Source: an uncultured Prevotella sp.
GTDB lineage: Bacteria > Bacteroidota > Bacteroidia > Bacteroidales > Bacteroidaceae
DNA: 35,054 bases
Reading direction: 5' to 3'
NCBI GenBank assembly: GCA_900315545.1
Contig: OMZM01000018.1
Coordinates: 1-35,054 of the forward strand
This document shows, in pieces, positions 1 to 35,047 of the stretch. The notes beneath the pieces are model-generated. The model did no database searches. It saw only the letters and a program-made list of their open reading frames with translations, and was not told the origin of the DNA. Each line of letters opens with the position of its first letter. Position 1 is the first letter of the stretch. The translations under genes and the position numbers were made by a program.

Positions 1-183
1 GTTCGGACATCTGCGAGTTGAAGTATATGCCTTTGTGGTCTCGGAAGCGTTGCTCCTGTATTTCCCGTGCACGGATGACCCTTTCGCGTATCGTTGCGCT
101 CGACTCGCCCTGCTGTGTGTTGGCTATCTCCTTGAACGGCACAGGTGTTATCTCTATCTGTATGTCTATGCGGTCGAAGATTA
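1..183 (-). pseudogene. 3'-part of a second comM/yifB-like gene (5' part missing, runs off window)
   Basis: Read on the minus strand, this stretch encodes a peptide starting FDRIDIQIEI, containing ESSATIRERVIRAREIQE and reaching KGIYFNSQMSE at the window edge. It aligns without gaps to residues 384-442 of the intact ComM protein encoded at 7519-9066, with about 34 of 58 residues identical by hand count. The two genes share the identical 16-nt string atgtctatgcggtcga (162-177 and 7904-7919). Homology stops abruptly upstream of about 183, where ComM should continue with its Walker motifs. Instead the frame runs into AT-rich DNA and can be opened at ATG codons at 271 or 277, giving a hydrophobic leader (SIIAAMAIILFLTG). 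The AAA core is therefore absent. The divergence shows it is not a recent duplicate of the neighbouring comM. The 3' end lies outside the window, so a functional fusion cannot be excluded. Confidence 0.72.
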
Positions 184-306
184 TGTAACCCCGTTTACAA
201 GAATTTTTCGTTCCTGTAAGAAACAGAATTATTGCCATTGCAGCGATTATACTTAAGTCTAAAAACACCATTTCCATACAATTAAAATATTTGCTAGATA
301 AACAAG

Positions 307-3300
307 TTACGAGATTGCATTCTCTATTTGGCCAAGAGAAATAATCTCCCAAATATCTTTATTATACGCTTCATTAAAACCTATTTTTTTTATGGCTATT
401 GGTTGAGATAATTCAAATTTGTAATCACCATATCCCACCTCCTGTAATCTATTTATATGTATTAGGGTTTTCCTTCCATCTTTACATTTGATTATTATAC
501 CAAATGGTTTTATTTTACAAACAACACCTTCTACAATTTGACCAATTTCGAATGGTGGGAGATCCAATTTTGCTTGCATTTCTTTATACGGCTTTGCATA
601 TACAGCGTGTTTTTTTGTATTTATACTGCATATCCCCAATTTTAGAGTTTTATTTTCTTTTATAAAATCAAGAACGTTCTTACCATCGAGATCAAGTGTT
701 TTCTTATATACTCTAACATAGTGCCCACCAACTAAATATATGAGCGTGGATGTGTTATTCTTATAGTATGTACCCCAAACAGGTACTACTTTTGAGCATT
801 CACTATCTAATATACTATAATCATAACCATCAAATTTAATAAACTTCCCTTTGTATGACCCTATTTCTTTGAATGAGCCATCAATAATTTGCTTATTGTT
901 GTCATCAACAATATACCAAAGTCCCAGTTTTTGGACCTTGTGAACATTGGGTTCAATGCATATTTCTTCAGTTGGAATAACATCAGCATTTGTGTCAATG
1001 TATCCTTCAGAAGCATTTTTCTTGACCTTGGCTTTACCATCCTCAAGATCAGAGATGAAATTATACGACTCTCCAAGATACTTGTTTTGTTCTATGCTAA
1101 ATATCTTGACCTTATTCGGACTTATAGCAACTTTTAGTTTGCCTTCAGCCCATTTTGTCACGTCGGTTATATCTTTCAATATAATCTTGTCACCATTGAA
1201 TACTTCATACTTTGAAAATTTTCTTTTTGCTATGATTGTCTCAGTCAATTCTATTGTGTGATCATAACACTCATTGCCTTCTTCGTCAATAGAGCCTTTG
1301 ACATTATTCATGCTAATGACGCTAGCCAAAGATCCATTAAAATTATCTATTCGCTTATATAAGGTTGGGAGTTCCTTTTCAAGAATCGTTGAGAAAAGAG
1401 AATAACTCGTAATCTTCTTTATCTTTATTAACGAATCGTTTAAGAAAACAGCTTCACGTAAATCAGAAAGGATTGTAGCACCATTTTTTTGGATGGAATA
1501 TTTTTCAAAGAAATTTGAAATAGACCAATTACCTCTTGTTTCGGTAATGTCGGCAAGTTCTTCACAATCTTTATTTATATATCCAGTTTTATAGTTAGAA
1601 ACTACTTTAGCTTTACCTTCCTGCAAATCACCAATCTTCGAATATTTGTTTTTAGATATGACCTCTCCTCTTTCGTTTATCACAACATACAAACCGCCTA
1701 AATAAGCTACATATTTTTTATCTGCCCATTCCCGAATAGATTTATAAGACTTCTCAAAAGGAATTAGTACATCAAAATTTTTACTTAACAATGCATCATA
1801 AGAGTTTTTTGTGACAACACAACAATCATTACTACATTTTTTTATGTTACTAAATTCTTCAGGAAGAACTTTGTTTCCATCAAGCGTGAATAGCGTATAT
1901 GAAGTAATCAGATTTGAAGTTGAATAGTATGATGAAGTTGATACTTGTTTTGTAACACTTGCAAGGATAATTGAATCTGTGAACAACGTAATATTGTCCC
2001 ATTGGGAAGGAAGAATTTGATGTTCATTTTTGTCAAAAACTTCCCATTTCCCAAATATTCTTCTCTTTATCAAACTATGATTCAATTGTTCTTCTAAGTC
2101 ATAAACTTCATGACCTCTATCATCCAATTTGCCAGTTATTCCATTTCTTTCAGCATCCGCGAACCCATCTACGAGCGATGAAATTTTTGTATACTCTTTC
2201 GTTGTAATACTCACACCACTGAGCGACAAGAGGCTATAAGTTTTCGATGGACTCGAATAATAATGGTTCTTAGAAACTAAAAGAATTCCCTTTGACCACA
2301 ATTCTATGGAATCAAACTCACATTCTATGTATTTTTTATCACGAACATTCAAAACACCTTGTTTGCCTTCCTTTACAATAATATAAAATGTTTCAATAAA
2401 AGGTCTTATTTCTGTGACACCCTCACTTAATGGAACCAAGATGTTCCCTTCAATACTTTTTATTTCAAGATGTCCGAATGCTTTAGAAACAACGATTTCA
2501 TTATTCATCGTTTCTGTGTCGTCATAGATAATCTCACCATCTTGATTGATATATCCTATCTGCGAGTTTTTTATAATTTTTGTTTTCCCTTCACCTACAT
2601 CCTCATATGCTTCAAATACACCGATAGAACAGATTACACCATCTTTCTTATAAAGCCGATACTCTTCTCTTGTACTATAATCATACCAACCTCCTTCCCT
2701 AATATCGTTTCGCGTCAAGAACAAATCATTGTCCCATAGTTCTATTGAGTCGAAATCACAAGGTAAGATTAACTTCAACTTGAAATTTAATATGCCATAT
2801 TTCTCTTTCTTGACCTTAGCGAATCCATCACATTTGAAAGGCTCAAAAGAGGAATAGGTGTCTTCTGTTATCGCAAAATTATCAAGTGAGAGAATCTGCT
2901 TATTAAGCCAGACGAATCTAGAATTGGCGAATTCCATCTTAGAATATGTTCCACAATAATTTGATGGAATCCCATTTTGAGTGCCATCAATATTAAAAAG
3001 TTGATACTCGTTGTATTCAACATCAATTGTGTGATATGTCGTTCGCCATCTGTAATTATAAGTCCTGTAACTTTCCGATTTTCGTTCTTTACGATATTTT
3101 ATCAGTTTTACAATAGCAAAATTACAATTATCTATTGTAACAACATCTCTGTATTGTGGCTGGAAAATATAGCTATTGGTAGAATCTTTAATACCCAATT
3201 TTCCACCTGTATTTACCTTAAATAAGTTGTCATTAATAATTTCTATCGGATCATCATGTTCATATGGAATAATCATTTTAGAGTCCTTAAATAGAGACCA

Positions 3301-6300
3301 CCTGCTGAAAAATTTCTTAGTCTCATAGCCGTCAGATAATTCGATGGATTCAGAGCATATCTCTTCTCCTTTAGGTGATATATGTCCTTCTCTCATATTA
3401 AATGAAACGGTTATCTTCGTGTTATTGTAAGGTGAGATAGAATCATATTTGATTTCTGTGAGATAACCTTTCCCAATCTCATATAGACCCCATTTGGAAC
3501 CCTTTTTCACTTTAAAAACATTCTGACTCCACCACTCAATATTATCAAATTCTGTCGCTATGACAATTCGCTTGTCGTTTATCGAATATGCGCCGACTTT
3601 ACCATTTAAGTCACATCTGAAAATGGAGGGATGATACTCGCTGTACCCTTTTTTGAGTTTGTCAATACCTTGAAAACTGATAGGGATACGAACTTCTCCA
3701 TGAGTATCTGATAATCCATAGAATTCTCCAGATTGCACAATCAGATAGTTTTCGTCAAGTTGGCGAATAGAGGTATAAGGACTCTTGTCTAAGCGTTTGT
3801 CTAAAAGACAATAGATATATGATTTCTCCTCAATGCATACAATAACATTTACACCGTTGGGTAGTGGCTTAATTTTATCATATTGAGTATCTATAAGATT
3901 TTCTCCTTCTTTGTCGTATAGGCCATATTTGCCATTGCGCTTTACGATGAGTAACTCCTTATCTGTATCAATTGATTCATACTCTGCTTTTAATACGCAA
4001 TGCCCATCGCTATTATATAGACCTTCAAGGTCGTCTTTCTTTACCAATAACCAATTAGCCCACGAAGAAGAATGCCATGTGTAAAAGTCCGTAATTGAGT
4101 CAAATTCAAATGATGATAGCAAAGAGCAATTTTCATCAAAGATAGCCCAAAAGCCTCCCTTTTTGGCAAGTATAAAGATCTTATGGAGTTGAATTTCTTC
4201 ATATTCGACAGACAACTTTTCAGAGAAGTTACCATCAATTAAGCCACACTTATTGCCTTTTATGACTTTAGAATACTCCTTTAATCCAAAACTCTTAATA
4301 TTATCATAGTCAGTACTCCAAATAATCTCGCCTTTTGAATTGTACACATCTGTTTTGCCAGGCTGTATAGCAATTGTTCGCTCTTGTTCAAAGTTACAAT
4401 CTATATATTCCAAATTGTTCTTTTCCGAGCCATCTAATTCTGTAACTTTCCACTTTCTGCTTATCGAATTCTGGAGCCATAAAGCAGAATAGCCTTGGGT
4501 GAAATGATATTTAGAAAAAGTAGTCGCAATAACTTGCTCGCCTGATATAGAATAAAAGGCATAGTCGTTTTCATTTTTCTTAAACAAGTATTCGTCATCT
4601 ACAATGAAAATATAAAGGCTGCTCGAATTATGTAAAAGAACAAATAATTCTGTCGTCAGTTCCCTGAGAGAAATCGTGTCATGCGGAGACCTATCTGAAA
4701 TACGCCCTATCCCTGAGATGTAAAAACCTGACGTGCTTTCTGCAACGATTAGTCCATTTGACAAACGGTGGAAATCCAGATAATCACATGCAAATAATTC
4801 ATTTCCATATTTGTCTATAAGACCATGGTGCCTGTTAAATGACACTTTATACATACCATTATTACCGAATTCCGAATATGAGGAATATTTAGCAGGAACA
4901 AGAACGACATTGTTATACATGAAACCATACTTATTGCCATCTTTGAATGGTGAGACATGCCCATCATTTTCAAGCATAAGTTTTAGGGCATTATCACGCT
5001 TGACAATTGCTTCTTCAGCTTCTCGACTTGCCCTTGCCAACAAATCATCTATCATTTGTTGTTTTGACCGCTCCTCTTTTTGAATGCGTTCCCTTACTTC
5101 TGGATGTATTTCATAATATGGTGTCTCTGCATCAAAATAATATGGCTTAGCAGTATCTTTATCAAACTTTAGTTCGTCAATCGTGATGAGTATACCATCA
5201 CCATTGCCTTTTGTTGGTGAATAATGCCAAGTATTGTCTGTGTCAAGCCAATTGCATTTAAGCACCAACTCTTCTCGCTCCTCGCTTGCCTGTTGCGCTT
5301 CTGCGTCAAAGATAAATACGTTTCGCTTATTTGCATAGTATATATCTTTGCACATCAGATTAGTAAGGTCTACATATTTTTGATTATCATCAAAGTTGAA
5401 TACCCAAATTATAAAATAATCGTTGAGTCTATAAAAAATATCACGCTGTACAACAACACTAATGAATGTTGTCGATAGTTGTAGCTCAAAGACAATGTTT
5501 AGGTTGTTATATTTGGCAATGACATCTGGTTTCCTCCAATTCATATATGGTAAATTGCTATTTACCCTTTTTTCTTCAACAACATCTGCCACACCTTTTG
5601 CGCGACTTGCATACCCTTCCAAGGCCTCATGTATGAGTCTTTTTAATCTTTTATGGCGATCACTTTCTGCTACAAGCCCATATTTTCTGGCCTCAATTTG
5701 TTCTTTTGACAACCCTGTCGTAGTCTTAATCTCACAATAGTCACTATCATGTAAGTGAGAAAAGAAAGCGACTTGCCCTCTTTCATATTTTCTACCAGAG
5801 ATTTTTACATCCTGTCTACAGTTGGTACAAATAAAACGATGTTCTCCTGCCAAAATTGATTCTTCGAAAATACGGCGCCAACGAATAAGCTCATGTTCTG
5901 GCCTCTTAAAAAAGGATTCCGAATCTATTATATCTCCTTCTTTTGTGTCAAATATTTCAAGAATACTCCGTTTAACAACGTGGGATTCAGTCTTTTTTGC
6001 GCTCTCTACTTCCTTTTTTGCTTCATCCAAAGCATTTTTAAGTGTTGTATACTTGTTTTCTAAGGTGTTATATTCAAATAAACCTGCCTCAATATATATT
6101 TCTGTGTTATCAACAACAGCCTGTAGTGGCATTGATATATCGTCATAGCTAATAGTATTACAAAACGATTTGGCAGTACCAACCAATCTTTCTAAATCGT
6201 TTTTCAATTCTTGTTCCTTATGCTTCTTTTCTTCTTCCAGCCGTTTCTTTCCTTCCTCTTCTTCCCTACGTAAACGCTCAGCTTCTTCCTGTTCTTTACG

Positions 6301-7488
6301 TTTTCGTTCTGCTTCCTCTTCTATCTTGCGCAAACGCTCTTCTTCATCCTGCTCAATCAGATCTTTCTCTTGCTCTTCTGCTACTTTAGACGCAGAATCC
6401 AAACTTTCTTTCGAATCATTCAGCTCTTCAAGTGTGCTATCATCAGAATTAGCTAATTCACGTGAAGACCTTATAGCATCTTCTAATGAATTCTTTACTT
6501 CTTCATGTGTGATGGTTGACAAAATGGACATGGCAGAATCCAATGAATTCTGCAAATTCTCTCTTGCTCCTGTAATTGCAGATTCAATAGCTTCCTGCTC
6601 TTTCTTTGCTTCAACCAGATACATGTAAGGTGATAATTCTTCTTTCTCTGCAACTAATTCTTGAATTTGTTGCCGAAGAGATTCGTTTTCAGTCTTTTGT
6701 TTATCTAATTCTTCGTTCAGTGCGGATTTCTCACTTTCTTTACTAGAACTTTCTTTAGTTAAAAGATCTATCTGTTCCTTTGCTTTGGCAGAATCTTCCT
6801 TTAAACGACTATTTTCACTTTCTAATTCATCTACAGCAACTTGCAATAAATCGGATTTCTCAGATAGAATGCGATTCCCTTCCTGTAACTGGGCTAAATT
6901 CTCTTCTAAAACCTTTTTTGCAGACTTTTCACATTCAATAGTTCTGTTTGCCTCTTCTAGTTGTTCTTTATTGTTGTTATATTCAGAATGGAGTTTATCA
7001 TAGTCAGCCCCCATCATCGATATTTTGGCATCTTTCTCGGATAATTCTGATTGCTGTCTTAACTGAGTCGATTCCAATTGCGTTATTTTTTCTTCAAGTG
7101 CCTTTATTCTATTTGAAAGGGCTAAGTTCTTGCCATTTAACGACGCATTTGATTTTGTGGTTTTCTCACACTCATCTTTAAACTTTTGTTCTGAAGTCCC
7201 AAGAATCTCATTCTCTTTTTTTAACTCTGTAATGGTTTTACTTAGGTCATCAGCTTTATTTTCTAAGATAGAATATTTGTTTCTCTCCCTAGTCATGTCC
7301 TCAGATAAAGAAATATTAAGTTGCTTTAAAGACGCAATTTCGTTATTTTTTTCTGTCAGTGACGTTGAATACCTGGATATTTTTTTCTTTGCAGAAAAAA
7401 TTTCCTTTTTTAAGGAGTTGATTTCTTGCATAAGATCGTCTATATCAACTCCATTAAATATATGTTGAATATTTGAAAAGAAAGACAT
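307..7488 (-). CDS. Giant coiled-coil / CoiA-like nuclease / WG-repeat / S1-like protein (2393 aa)
   Basis: Residues 1 to about 540 are almost entirely coiled coil, with a highly charged KRKEQEEAERLRREEEE segment near 370-435. Residues about 540-715 look like a CoiA-like (DUF6035-type) module: a zinc-ribbon pattern C554-x2-C557, H578-x-H580, C585, then a PD-(D/E)xK-type core with D655 in WRKPDV and E668-L-Q670 in FELQLS. From about 842 to 2240 come WG-type repeats (NGKYGLYDKEG, GSKWGLYEIGKG, KEKYGILNF), about 35-40 intact or degenerate units by hand count, predicted beta-propeller-like. Residues about 2310-2390 resemble an S1 RNA-binding domain (GQIVEGVVCKIKPFGIIIK). The gene is strongly AT-rich compared with all downstream genes, begins 30 bp after comM and has no evident promoter of its own. 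No signal peptide or membrane segment is seen, so it is probably cytoplasmic. A DNA-targeting or defence role is inference; the function is unknown. Confidence 0.85.
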   Translation of the reverse strand: MSFFSNIQHIFNGVDIDDLMQEINSLKKEIFSAKKKISRYSTSLTEKNNEIASLKQLNISLSEDMTRERNKYSILENKADDLSKTITELKKENEILGTSEQKFKDECEKTTKSNASLNGKNLALSNRIKALEEKITQLESTQLRQQSELSEKDAKISMMGADYDKLHSEYNNNKEQLEEANRTIECEKSAKKVLEENLAQLQEGNRILSEKSDLLQVAVDELESENSRLKEDSAKAKEQIDLLTKESSSKESEKSALNEELDKQKTENESLRQQIQELVAEKEELSPYMYLVEAKKEQEAIESAITGARENLQNSLDSAMSILSTITHEEVKNSLEDAIRSSRELANSDDSTLEELNDSKESLDSASKVAEEQEKDLIEQDEEERLRKIEEEAERKRKEQEEAERLRREEEEGKKRLEEEKKHKEQELKNDLERLVGTAKSFCNTISYDDISMPLQAVVDNTEIYIEAGLFEYNTLENKYTTLKNALDEAKKEVESAKKTESHVVKRSILEIFDTKEGDIIDSESFFKRPEHELIRWRRIFEESILAGEHRFICTNCRQDVKISGRKYERGQVAFFSHLHDSDYCEIKTTTGLSKEQIEARKYGLVAESDRHKRLKRLIHEALEGYASRAKGVADVVEEKRVNSNLPYMNWRKPDVIAKYNNLNIVFELQLSTTFISVVVQRDIFYRLNDYFIIWVFNFDDNQKYVDLTNLMCKDIYYANKRNVFIFDAEAQQASEEREELVLKCNWLDTDNTWHYSPTKGNGDGILITIDELKFDKDTAKPYYFDAETPYYEIHPEVRERIQKEERSKQQMIDDLLARASREAEEAIVKRDNALKLMLENDGHVSPFKDGNKYGFMYNNVVLVPAKYSSYSEFGNNGMYKVSFNRHHGLIDKYGNELFACDYLDFHRLSNGLIVAESTSGFYISGIGRISDRSPHDTISLRELTTELFVLLHNSSSLYIFIVDDEYLFKKNENDYAFYSISGEQVIATTFSKYHFTQGYSALWLQNSISRKWKVTELDGSEKNNLEYIDCNFEQERTIAIQPGKTDVYNSKGEIIWSTDYDNIKSFGLKEYSKVIKGNKCGLIDGNFSEKLSVEYEEIQLHKIFILAKKGGFWAIFDENCSLLSSFEFDSITDFYTWHSSSWANWLLVKKDDLEGLYNSDGHCVLKAEYESIDTDKELLIVKRNGKYGLYDKEGENLIDTQYDKIKPLPNGVNVIVCIEEKSYIYCLLDKRLDKSPYTSIRQLDENYLIVQSGEFYGLSDTHGEVRIPISFQGIDKLKKGYSEYHPSIFRCDLNGKVGAYSINDKRIVIATEFDNIEWWSQNVFKVKKGSKWGLYEIGKGYLTEIKYDSISPYNNTKITVSFNMREGHISPKGEEICSESIELSDGYETKKFFSRWSLFKDSKMIIPYEHDDPIEIINDNLFKVNTGGKLGIKDSTNSYIFQPQYRDVVTIDNCNFAIVKLIKYRKERKSESYRTYNYRWRTTYHTIDVEYNEYQLFNIDGTQNGIPSNYCGTYSKMEFANSRFVWLNKQILSLDNFAITEDTYSSFEPFKCDGFAKVKKEKYGILNFKLKLILPCDFDSIELWDNDLFLTRNDIREGGWYDYSTREEYRLYKKDGVICSIGVFEAYEDVGEGKTKIIKNSQIGYINQDGEIIYDDTETMNNEIVVSKAFGHLEIKSIEGNILVPLSEGVTEIRPFIETFYIIVKEGKQGVLNVRDKKYIECEFDSIELWSKGILLVSKNHYYSSPSKTYSLLSLSGVSITTKEYTKISSLVDGFADAERNGITGKLDDRGHEVYDLEEQLNHSLIKRRIFGKWEVFDKNEHQILPSQWDNITLFTDSIILASVTKQVSTSSYYSTSNLITSYTLFTLDGNKVLPEEFSNIKKCSNDCCVVTKNSYDALLSKNFDVLIPFEKSYKSIREWADKKYVAYLGGLYVVINERGEVISKNKYSKIGDLQEGKAKVVSNYKTGYINKDCEELADITETRGNWSISNFFEKYSIQKNGATILSDLREAVFLNDSLIKIKKITSYSLFSTILEKELPTLYKRIDNFNGSLASVISMNNVKGSIDEEGNECYDHTIELTETIIAKRKFSKYEVFNGDKIILKDITDVTKWAEGKLKVAISPNKVKIFSIEQNKYLGESYNFISDLEDGKAKVKKNASEGYIDTNADVIPTEEICIEPNVHKVQKLGLWYIVDDNNKQIIDGSFKEIGSYKGKFIKFDGYDYSILDSECSKVVPVWGTYYKNNTSTLIYLVGGHYVRVYKKTLDLDGKNVLDFIKENKTLKLGICSINTKKHAVYAKPYKEMQAKLDLPPFEIGQIVEGVVCKIKPFGIIIKCKDGRKTLIHINRLQEVGYGDYKFELSQPIAIKKIGFNEAYNKDIWEIISLGQIENAIS

Positions 7489-7518: not shown

Positions 7519-9066
7519 TTATAATCCTCTCTCCGCCCAGTCGCCTCGGTCAAGATTGCGATAGCCGATGGCCTCGGCGATGTGGATGGACTCAACCTTC
7601 TCGCTGCCGGCGAGGTCGGCGATGGTGCGGGCAACCTTGAGAATGCGGCTGTAGGCGCGGGCGGAGAGCTTCAGGCGCTCCATGGCCATACGGAGCATGT
7701 CGAGCGAGGCGGCGTCGGGCTCGGCAAACTCATGGAGCATGCGCTCGGTCATCATGGCATTGCAGTGGATGCCCTTGTAGGGCTTGAATCGCTCCTCCTG
7801 GATCTTACGGGCGGCAATGACTCGCTCGCGGATGACGGCCGAGGGCTCGCCGGGCTGCATCTGTGAGAGCTGGGCGAAGGGCACGGCCTGAATCTCGCAG
7901 TGGATGTCTATGCGGTCGAGCAGCGGACCGCTGATTTTGTTCATGTATCGCTGTATTTGTCCTGGCGTGCATACGCAGTGGTGTGTCGGGTCGCCATAGT
8001 ATCCGCAGGGGCAGGGGTTCATTGATGCCACGAACATGAACGAGCATGGGTATTCTACGGTGTATTTGGCGCGCGATATGGTTATGCGTCGGTCTTCCAG
8101 TGGCTGTCTCATTACTTCCAGCGTAGATTTGTTGAACTCCGGCAGTTCGTCGAGGAAGAGCACTCCGTTGTGTGCCAGTGATATCTCTCCGGGCTGCGGT
8201 GTGTTGCCGCCTCCTACGAGTGCCACCTGCGAGATGGTGTGGTGTGGTCCTCTGAACGGTCGTTGCGCAATGAGCGACGTGCCGCGTTCCAGCATTCCCG
8301 CTACGGAGTGTATCTGTGTAGTCTCAAGGCTTTCAGCCAGCGACAGTGGCGGCAGTATGCCCGGCAGTCGTTTTGCCATCATCGACTTTCCCGATCCCGG
8401 CGGACCAATCATTATCAGGTTGTGGAAGCCTGCTGCTGCCACTTCTAGTGCACGCTTCACGTTCTCCTGTCCGCGTACGTCGGCAAAGTCGAGGTCGAAC
8501 TGGTACTGATGTTCGTAGAACTCCTTTCTCGTGTCTACGAAGCATGGTTGCGGGTTTGTTTTCTCGTTCAGAAGGTCGATAACGTCTCCTATGTTTTCCA
8601 TGCCGTAGACTTCGAGGTTGTTTACTACGGCAGCCTCGCGCTCGTTCTGTTTAGGCACTATCAGCCCCTTAAAGCCCTCCTGTCGTGCCTTTATGGCTAT
8701 GGGCAGTGCTCCCCGTATGGGTTGCAGTGTGCCGTCGAGGCTCAGTTCGCCCACCATCATGAAGCTTTGCAGGTTGACGTTCTGTATGCTTTCGTCGGCA
8801 GCCAGTATGCCTATGGCTATCGGCAGGTCGTAGCTGCTGCCCTCCTTGCGTATGTCGGCAGGCGACAGGTTGATGGTTATTTCCGACTTCGGGAACTTGT
8901 ATCCGTTGTTGTTTATAGCCGCCGCTATTCGGTCGCGGCTCTCCCTGACAGCCTCGTCGCCAAGTCCCGACAGGTGATAGTTGAAGCCTTTCGACGTGTT
9001 TACCTCAACGGTTATAGCCGTAACGTTGAGTCCGTTGACGGCAGCGCAGTATGTTTTTACAAGCAT
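7519..9066 (-). CDS. comM: ComM/YifB family Mg-chelatase-like AAA+ ATPase
   Basis: The 515-aa length is normal for the family. An N-terminal Lon-protease-like fold (about 1-170, SPADIRKEGSSYDLPIAIG) precedes a Mg-chelatase-type AAA+ domain. Walker A is GPPGSGKS (221-228), Walker B is VLFLDE (302-307), the cysteine cluster CPCGYYGDPTHHCVC is at 352-366, and the C-terminal lid (RAYSRILKVARTIADL) is at 470-486. In Gram-negative bacteria ComM is a hexameric branch-migration helicase that promotes integration of incoming DNA in natural transformation; that role is transferred from the family. The gene follows the pyridoxal kinase gene after 19 nt and is probably co-transcribed with it. Its base composition is GC-rich, in sharp contrast to the giant gene starting 30 bp after its stop codon. 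The start MLVKTYCAAVNGL is the usual family start. Confidence 0.95.
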   Translation of the reverse strand: MLVKTYCAAVNGLNVTAITVEVNTSKGFNYHLSGLGDEAVRESRDRIAAAINNNGYKFPKSEITINLSPADIRKEGSSYDLPIAIGILAADESIQNVNLQSFMMVGELSLDGTLQPIRGALPIAIKARQEGFKGLIVPKQNEREAAVVNNLEVYGMENIGDVIDLLNEKTNPQPCFVDTRKEFYEHQYQFDLDFADVRGQENVKRALEVAAAGFHNLIMIGPPGSGKSMMAKRLPGILPPLSLAESLETTQIHSVAGMLERGTSLIAQRPFRGPHHTISQVALVGGGNTPQPGEISLAHNGVLFLDELPEFNKSTLEVMRQPLEDRRITISRAKYTVEYPCSFMFVASMNPCPCGYYGDPTHHCVCTPGQIQRYMNKISGPLLDRIDIHCEIQAVPFAQLSQMQPGEPSAVIRERVIAARKIQEERFKPYKGIHCNAMMTERMLHEFAEPDAASLDMLRMAMERLKLSARAYSRILKVARTIADLAGSEKVESIHIAEAIGYRNLDRGDWAERGL

Positions 9067-11146: not shown

Positions 11147-11598
11147 CTCACAGCAAAAACCGTGCCAAACTCATCAGGATTTTCATCCGAGCCGAAAAAT
11201 GATGAAAAATTTTGACAGAGGAAAAGTCTTCAAATAGAATTTTTACAGCCCCTGAAACTGCAAAAATCTGTTAATTCCAAGACCGACGACAACTGTTAAA
11301 ATTGTCAAAGAGCATGGTTGAGGCACTTATTTGCGTATTTTGGCTTGCGAAACATTGTGTCTGAAAGTCCCAAACACTATGTTTGGCAGCCTCAAACACA
11401 CTGTTTGACAATGTCAAACATGCTCTTTGACAATTTTAACACATGCGTTTCCTGCATAAAAAGCTTATATATGCAGTTAACAAACTGACTGTCAATAAAT
11501 TACAAATTCACTCGTATTTTGGGCATATTTTGCCCCTCAGATTTCCGAAACGACTTTCGCGGGCATTCTCGCGACAGTAAACGAGCGAAAATTGATTA
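11147..11598 (-). repeat. Large intergenic repeat, copy 1 (452 bp)
   Basis: This fills most of the 703-bp gene-free stretch between btuC and sufE. It aligns end to end with 18401-18853. Conserved blocks include cagcaaaaaccgtgcc at one end, a central region of inverted repeats, and an 86-bp block (11513-11598) with only about four differences from copy 2. That block contains gggcatattttgccc and a tcgcg...cgcga stem. No coding frame in it is convincing and no transposase is nearby. Orientation is given so that the repeat reads toward sufE. The rest of the gap (10978-11146 and 11599-11646) holds nothing else recognisable. Confidence 0.9.
11294..11441. repeat. Long-range inverted repeat with nested palindrome (copy 1)
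   Basis: Arms 11294-11316 and 11419-11441 are perfect 23-bp inverted repeats, beginning TGTTAAAATTGTC and ending AACA. About 102 bp lie between them. A second palindrome, tgtttgaca-a-tgtcaaaca (11402-11420), overlaps the right arm by 2 bp. A smaller one, ccaaaca-cta-tgtttgg, lies between the arms. Confidence 0.9.
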
Positions 11599-18400: not shown

Positions 18401-18853
18401 CTCACAGCAAAAACCGTGCCAAACTCATCAGATTTTTCTTTCTAACCGAAAAATGATGAAAAATTTTGACAGGGAAAAACTCTCCAAATAGAATTTTTAT
18501 AGCCCCTGAAACTGCAAAAATCTGTTAATTTCAAGACCGGACACAACTGTTAAAATTGTCAAAGAGCATGTTTGACGCGCCTATTTCGTCTGTTTTGCCC
18601 TGCCAGGCACTATGCCCGATACCCCCAAACACTGTGTCTGACCTCCTCAAACAGTGTGTTTGACAATGTCAAACATGCTCTTTGACATTTTTAACACTTA
18701 TGTTTTCAGCACAGAAACACTATATTTACAGTTAACAGTCTGACTGTCAGGCGATTGCATCCGTACTCGAATTTTGGGCATATTTTGCCCCTCAGATTTC
18801 CGAAACGGGTTTCGCGGGCATTCTCGCGACAGTAAACGAGCCAAAATTGATTA
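18401..18853 (-). repeat. Large intergenic repeat, copy 2 (453 bp)
   Basis: It fills most of the 562-bp gap between miaB and the GNAT gene and aligns from end to end with copy 1 (11147-11598), in the same orientation. The outermost sequences ctcacagcaaaaaccgtgcc and aaaattgatta are shared. The most divergent part is the stretch between the inverted-repeat arms. The remaining gap sequence (18373-18400 and 18854-18934) shows nothing recognisable. Confidence 0.9.
18548..18696. repeat. Long-range inverted repeat with nested palindrome (copy 2)
   Basis: Arms 18548-18576 and 18668-18696 are 29-bp inverted repeats with a single mismatch. The palindrome tgtttgaca-a-tgtcaaaca (18657-18675) overlaps the inner end of the right arm. 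Spacing and layout match copy 1, although the sequence between the arms differs considerably. Confidence 0.9.
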
Positions 18854-34921: not shown

Positions 34922-34958
34922 TATTTTGTGAGAAATTTAAATGGTAAAGTCGCGTTCG

Positions 34959-35047
34959 CAGCAAAAACCGTGCCAAACTCGTCGGATTTTTCTTTTGACC
35001 CGAAAAATGATGAAAAATTTTGACAGGGGAAAACTCTCCAAATAGAA
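34959..35047 (-). repeat. Large intergenic repeat, copy 3 (partial, about 89 bp)
   Basis: It matches the first part of copies 1 and 2 from cagcaaaaaccgtgcc through gatgaaaaattttgacag to ccaaatagaa, in the same orientation. It lies 97 bp upstream of the metK start. At 35048 the sequence departs from the other copies, seven bases before the window ends, so this is either a truncated copy or one with an internal difference. Confidence 0.85.

Follow-up and report, generated by a model that had tools for sequence, protein, structure and literature searches.

The window analysed here, a 35,054-nucleotide stretch of a contig from an uncultured Prevotella sp., carries on its minus strand an intact open reading frame of 2393 codons (307..7488; 2393 aa), which reads from an ATG start with 0 internal stops. 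Its GC3 is 0.30, against 0.70 in the adjoining comM gene, and no membrane span is evident in the product (highest 19-residue Kyte-Doolittle mean 1.44). The giant gene encodes a real, intact and unusual protein. From the N-terminus, the domain order is a short motif, a coiled coil, DUF7830, DUF6035/CoiA_nuc, WG repeats and an S1-like tail. An initial annotation, made from the sequence alone, had proposed an architecture of coil, CoiA-like nuclease, WG array and S1-like end, and this is borne out by Pfam, a coil match and AlphaFold2. At E ≤ 1 the giant protein matched only the PADLOC 2.0.0 models LmuB (17.8 bits, residues 17-333) and JetC (7.7 bits, residues 8-205), both confined to the coil, and no PADLOC 2.0.0 model covers the protein.

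The short N-terminal motif (FSNIQHIFNGVDIDDL), which ends in GVDID, and the coiled coil occupy residues ~1-480 (6049..7488, minus strand), as seen from the coil match, the composition and the nucleotide identity to the relative L040 described below. Residues 15-480 are rich in E, K and L, and residues 15-313 match an SMC-type coil. In 3 of 26 loci, the family gene is directly preceded by a gene for a small coil protein that has a similar N-terminal motif.

Beyond the coil, Pfam places DUF7830 (PF25169), the CxxC-H-C segment, at residues 518-591 (5716..5937, minus strand; E 3.9e-16, 59.1 bits against a cut-off of 27.5), followed by DUF6035 (PF19500) at residues 606-786 (5131..5673, minus strand; E 1.7e-13, 51.3 bits against 22.6) and, overlapping the latter, CoiA_nuc (PF06054) at residues 652-732 (E 4e-5, 24.2 bits against 20.3). 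Pfam matches to the DUF6035/CoiA-like nuclease were obtained at E ≤ 0.01 in 25 of the 26 family rows. The PD-(D/E)xK fold anticipated in the initial annotation was recovered in an AlphaFold2 model of residues 496-835 (pLDDT 83.6), and the residues it had named (C554, C557, H578, H580, C585, D655, E668 and Q670) are all present at those positions. The proposed active site, D655 (RKPD, codon at 5524..5526, minus strand) with E668-L-Q670 (ExQ, codons at 5479..5487, minus strand), stands: D655, E668 and Q670 are invariant in 25/25 aligned rows, the outlier L031 lying outside that alignment. Among the supposed ligands, C554, C557, H578 and C585 are likewise invariant in 25/25 rows, whereas H580, with a histidine in just 6/25 rows, was rejected as a zinc ligand. 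By Pfam, catalytic residues and predicted fold, the giant protein is thus a putative DUF6035/CoiA-like PD-(D/E)xK nuclease. A search of the nuclease profile against PDB sequences returned one meaningless match only (E 2.5).

Two distant long relatives depart from this active-site pattern. In one (L031, 9096-13124) the residues are altered to RRPS and FDAL; the other, a Prevotella plasmid protein (L111, 2072-6472), keeps KPD but reads FETL. From their sequences, both are possible inactive paralogues.

The WG-repeat array spans residues 849-2213 (850..4944, minus strand), as recognised by Pfam, a repeat profile and self-alignment. The WG_beta_rep model matched with E 5e-29 (100.4 bits against a cut-off of 25.6), four stretches individually passing E 1 and one passing 0.01, and it was matched in 22/26 family rows. 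An iterated repeat profile resolved 15 WG units at iE < 0.1 and 20 at iE < 10. The array claimed initially is therefore present, and since the step between neighbouring units, pooled over the family, is most commonly 34 residues, the accompanying figure of 35-40 repeats was reasonably extrapolated rather than counted. Aligning the array with itself by a pairwise aligner revealed larger self-similar blocks, at lags of 146 (1705-1817 versus 1559-1676, z 27), 190 (1912-2047 versus 1722-1882, z 7.7) and 192 residues (2105-2274 versus 1913-2076, z 7.0), with more distant block pairs at other lags (z 4-12). Consequently, part of the array seems to have grown through duplication of multi-repeat blocks.

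The S1-like (OB) tail, residues 2313-2385 (334..552, minus strand), is recognised from Pfam, from PDB sequence matches and from the C-termini of relatives. The Pfam S1 match at residues 2313-2350 (E 0.0029, 18.4 bits) is under the cut-off of 22; S1 was matched at E ≤ 0.01 in 6/26 family rows, the best at 9.2e-20. PDB chains of 30S ribosomal protein S1 match the same stretch (E 0.0085 and weaker), and in 15/26 relatives the C-terminal part matches the final 94 residues at E < 1. Short relatives retain the last array block together with the S1-like tail.

The comM insertion site

The giant gene starts 30 bases past the stop of an intact comM/yifB gene of 515 aa (7519..9066, minus strand), the gene before the insertion and outside the system. 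Behind the giant gene lies a 3' fragment of a second, diverged comM (2..181, minus strand), truncated by the contig end; both comM sequences were identified by sequence matches. Window positions 1-265 are 96.6% identical to positions 4893-5156 of contig C2 of the same genome, and C2 6533-6642 is 98% identical to C2 4682-4791. Between two comM fragments on C2 lies a 439-aa gene (L093 5181-6500), which has no Pfam match at E 0.01 and is probably a second cargo gene at the comM site. These sequences suggest the order comM, giant gene, fragment, 439-aa gene, fragment and further genes, with the repeat as the point where the assembly broke.

In another genome of the genus, G060, an intact comM is followed by low-G+C small ORFs, presumably with Rhs-type motifs, and then by a comM fragment identical to that genome's own comM over 129 residues from codon 385; the fragment in the window's own genome begins matching at codon 382. 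In these two genomes the comM 3' side holds captured cargo and then partial comM 3' copies starting near codons 382-385 (window 1-265 and 7519-9066; L093 4606-6642; L099 3519-9013). Two genomes have two fragment matches, of 22 with any match among 120 searched. In intact comM, the fragment breakpoint coincides with a GACCGCAT stretch; the comM site used by AbaR/Tn7-like islands contains ACCGC. No recombinase was recognised by eye among the cargo ORFs at the comM sites. Elsewhere in the window, a repeated element of ~450 bp occurs at 11147-11598 and 18401-18853 (84% identical), with a partial third copy at 34956-35047, and the same element ends contig C2 (L093 3-447, 91% identical).

Relatives and their gene neighbourhoods

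Matches to the nuclease region were found in at least 10/200 genomes of the genus, 6/399 of the family and 6/395 of the phylum, the own genome included each time, these counts being lower bounds because only some first-look candidates were scored (2 per genome in the genus scan). The other 29 of the 39 genomes listed in the genus scan match by coil or WG repeats only, and four of the phylum matches are distant forms of 463-557 aa. The family is hence rare and patchy at these lower bounds, and does not behave as a core gene of the order, the outcome that the initial annotation had set against its own proposal. The named scan yielded 26 loci, 23 of them from Bacteroidota by title or lineage; the others are L047 (no lineage), L039 (a Pseudobutyrivibrio MAG) and L059 (Marithrix). 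In the tree, the L039 protein (960-7019), although on a Pseudobutyrivibrio-labelled contig, is a near relative of Prevotella members, a placement that may reflect cross-phylum transfer or a binning error. Family ORFs in the 26 loci range from 429 to 2129 aa (L041, L044 and L058 being cut by contig ends), and the giant protein, at 2393 aa, is the longest family form. Stand-alone DUF6035 relatives were matched in 30/72,556 plasmid records and in 1/50,697 phage records, at the end of a Vibrio phage, and a viral contig scan gave one distant relative.

The giant gene resembles different relatives along its length. L040, a Prevotella MAG, shares 87% identity with nucleotides 1-1233, which encode the coil, and this match ends there; nucleotides 1447-2771, encoding the nuclease and the first WG part, are 74% identical to L034. 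At the protein level, the coil is 80% identical to L040 and ~30% to L034, and the nuclease 52% and 86%, respectively. From these identities, the gene appears to be a mosaic of two relatives whose modules have been exchanged.

The length of the C-terminal part after the nuclease differs between groups of members: 390-627 aa follow the nuclease in 11 partnered members versus 392-1558 aa in 12 others, the window included (Mann-Whitney p 0.001, with partner class following the tree). The grouping for this test was made by the authors, with L053 (TOTE partners) counted as partnered here and as 'none_or_other' on the tree; L034 and L044 entered as incomplete sequences, and L038, L041, L058 and L059 were left out. 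The idea that the array lengthens when partners are absent was not upheld, since partner class tracks the tree, and it is kept as a lead only.

One neighbourhood is a conserved five-gene run with the nuclease gene first, found in 6/26 loci (L054 9206-17158, with equivalents in L048, L049, L052, L055 and L056). It comprises the nuclease, a methyltransferase-like protein, a UvrD-like helicase, an unannotated protein of 509-773 aa and a DUF1848 protein, the domain names resting on the scanned L054 and L056 members. The unannotated protein falls into two weakly related clusters, and its L054 member has no PADLOC match at E 0.1, while the L054 DUF1848 protein matches RTasDUF1848. Directly upstream of the nuclease, 4/6 operon loci encode a small unannotated protein of 85-121 aa (L054 8875-9132, L056 8875-9132, L055 8833-9096, L049 8963-9328). 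More widely, the DUF1848 cluster occurs in 9/26 loci, always with a UvrD- or DEAD-type helicase nearby. No DUF1848 was found in the window's assembled genome or in G164, the genome of L040, by a search that was positive in G019 and G100 (completeness 92% and 83%). Thus, the initial view of a stand-alone gene lacking partners holds for the giant gene as far as the contig extends, but fails for the six relatives with the five-gene operon.

Beyond that operon, relatives have other partners, including TOTE, TerB, Schlafen and reverse-transcriptase genes. L042 has TerB and WG-like plus UvrD protein neighbours; a DEAD helicase lies alongside L050 and L057; L043 belongs to an island that also holds SngB and SngC, and a reverse transcriptase gene precedes it; the next genes after L040 are a Schlafen AlbA_2 gene (assigned by clustering with a scanned L054 gene) and then AEP-TOTE; L051 is followed by HEPN-RES; a Fic gene precedes L041; and the second gene downstream of L039 is of PLD type. 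A pair of TOTE S1CSD and M16A-like genes adjoins two different nuclease clades (L053 and L025), which favours a true association. Five of the 30 plasmid records were viewed, and the genes near the nuclease were RES-Xre and AbiEii in one, MazF and TrlF in another, type I R and PIN in a third, SbcCD-like and transposition genes in the fourth, and a DNA/RNA endonuclease and a peptidase in the fifth. The survey for defence islands suggested at the outset therefore finds defence-type genes adjoining many relatives. Nothing telling was seen among the neighbours looked at in L035, L036, L044 and L046, and a near/far PADLOC comparison of neighbour genes (121/122 near, all 99 far; L038 and L056 dropped beforehand as near-copies, the second ORF of L034 omitted from the near set) was not decisive.

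Likeness to described families and systems

By Pfam cut-off, the giant protein shares its nuclease domain with DUF6035/CoiA_nuc proteins, and the stand-alone members on plasmids and the Vibrio phage are annotated as 'DUF6035 family protein'. Those viewed are ~416-614 aa long, a length that cannot accommodate the WG array and S1 tail of the giant protein. The domains are thus named in Pfam and the stand-alone proteins already annotated, so that calling this an undescribed system, as was done initially, is too strong. Literature searches, as far as the accessible texts go, found no function for DUF6035, and the one publication naming it leaves the domain uninvestigated in its accessible part; nor was a description of the giant-protein family recognised in accessible literature on WG repeats, CoiA and anti-phage defence, DUF6035 or DUF1848.

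In the accessible text of the screen by Vassallo et al. 2022 (PMC9519451), a CoiA-domain protein is reported as anti-phage, and so is another protein, a 7-bladed propeller carrying a nuclease domain of the Mrr family. None of the proteins as described there joins coil, CoiA-like nuclease, WG array and S1 tail, the comparison being by description only. CoCoNuT systems (PMC11090510, from the accessible portion) offer a parallel in uniting long coils, PD-(D/E)xK nucleases, OB/CSD domains and helicases within a single defence theme, and are built around an NxD McrB-like GTPase. Pfam gave no such GTPase in the genes scanned, namely the giant gene, five ORFs of the window, one cargo gene from the same genome and 27 genes neighbouring relatives, the contig ending beside the giant gene.

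TOTE conflict systems consist of TPR, OB, TBP and Effector parts (PMC12458937, in the sections available), and AEP-TOTE and S1CSD-TOTE models exist in Pfam. Components lie beside three relatives (L040, L053 and L025), and the S1/OB tail of the giant protein echoes the OB part. However, the giant protein has no TPR or TBP match at E ≤ 1, only an S1-like tail, and its nuclease is CoiA-like. The PADLOC models RTasDUF1848, RTasHel and RT_UG35, associated with reverse transcriptases (DRT), match the DUF1848, helicase and methyltransferase-like neighbours of relatives. A reverse transcriptase itself lies beside one relative, L043; neither the scanned genes of the L054 operon nor the five window ORFs beside the giant gene, on the side where the contig continues, yielded one.

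Putative function of the giant protein

Because its relatives are patchy and often lie beside defence-type genes, the giant protein is probably an immune nuclease against phages or invading DNA. Our preferred reading, with a probability of roughly 0.6, is that of an intracellular effector nuclease from a biological-conflict family, most likely acting against phages or mobile elements. This putative function draws on the coil, the CxxC-H-C segment and the predicted PD-(D/E)xK-type domain with its conserved active site, and, at the sequence level, on the variable-length WG array, the S1/OB-like tail, the patchy spread, the defence-type neighbours and the apparent mosaic evolution. Most likely, the protein would work in the cytoplasm as an oligomeric effector that cuts DNA, its WG array and S1-like tail binding a trigger or target. 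Mechanistically, the N-terminal motif and coil would serve for oligomerisation or for docking on a partner coil; the WG array, together with an S1 tail binding single-stranded nucleic acid, would recognise a component or trigger of the invader; and this recognition would license the nuclease to cut DNA. At the loci of relatives, the helicase and DUF1848 proteins (9/26) and the methyltransferase-like protein (6/26) probably act with the nuclease, and the helicase (UvrD or DEAD) and DUF1848 may supply further steps; the long-array version in the window may work without these two, or with partners not yet seen.

The same neighbourhoods could be read as those of a self-acting toxin, an abortive-infection or toxin-antitoxin effector rather than a nuclease directed at the invader. 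Some relatives have HEPN-RES, Fic, ADP-ribosylglycohydrolase or toxin-antitoxin genes nearby, the 85-121 aa protein upstream in the operon loci is a possible antitoxin or regulator, and suicide is a common mode of action of defence nucleases that carry large sensor parts. Yet the giant gene is preceded by comM and not by a small gene, and helicase and methyltransferase-like neighbours better fit DNA processing, which leaves this reading doubtful. We consider it unlikely that the gene serves a mobile element with its own agenda, be it competition among plasmids, phages or integrative elements or stabilisation of the element, and not host immunity. The plasmid and Vibrio phage relatives point that way, as does L037, which lies near mobilisation-type genes (judged by eye from ORF starts) and a YhcG nuclease (Pfam), but several loci, including L036, L054 and L056, look chromosomal with housekeeping-type flanks (by eye only), and the reading overlaps with that of defence.

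That the gene is an oversized, decaying and non-functional one is very improbable. Its closest relative, L034 (7829-15682), is broken by an in-frame stop within the WG array into 2101 + 432 aa, which could be decay or a MAG error. The window ORF is, by contrast, intact throughout, as are its catalytic residues. Comparison of the coil with L040 gives a dN/dS of 0.29, and that of the WG part with L034 gives 0.16-0.24 at a nearly saturated dS; in the nuclease dN is 0.10 and dS is saturated, and hence no ratio is given. A role in competence or DNA uptake was rejected as scarcely credible, although the CoiA_nuc match over the cut-off and the adjoining intact comM both carry competence-linked names. 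The remaining family loci retrieved (L022-L059, mostly with flanks of up to 10 kb on either side) gave no tblastn match to ComM, so the adjacency looks a one-off, and the nuclease gene is patchy whereas each of the 8 further comM loci retrieved has a full-length comM.

The initial proposal of a single-gene effector against phages or mobile elements thus gains from the conserved active site, the patchiness and the defence-type neighbours, and loses from the partner operon in 6/26 loci; the sensing by the WG/S1 part and the gating by the coil that it put forward are hypothetical. A broader view of the invader-directed nuclease, held only tentatively, is that it belongs to a new defence family of modular build, whose conserved CoiA-like nuclease would be combined with exchangeable coils and partner sets (helicase/methyltransferase/DUF1848, TOTE, RT or TerB) and with a WG array growing by duplication of blocks of ~146-192 residues. 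The giant protein might then be the extreme form, a single-protein sensor-nuclease with a long array replacing the partners.

As a DUF6035/CoiA-like nuclease with WG array and S1-like tail, the giant gene is by its sequence a good defence candidate, and the five-gene operon and module exchange of its family are more striking than its size alone. If the defence reading is true, bacterial immunity would gain a family of nucleases whose recognition array, built of repeats, is tunable, together with a conserved and directly testable operon of nuclease, methyltransferase-like protein, helicase, unannotated protein and DUF1848. The varied array lengths behind a well-conserved nuclease would offer a natural series on whether WG repeats set specificity.
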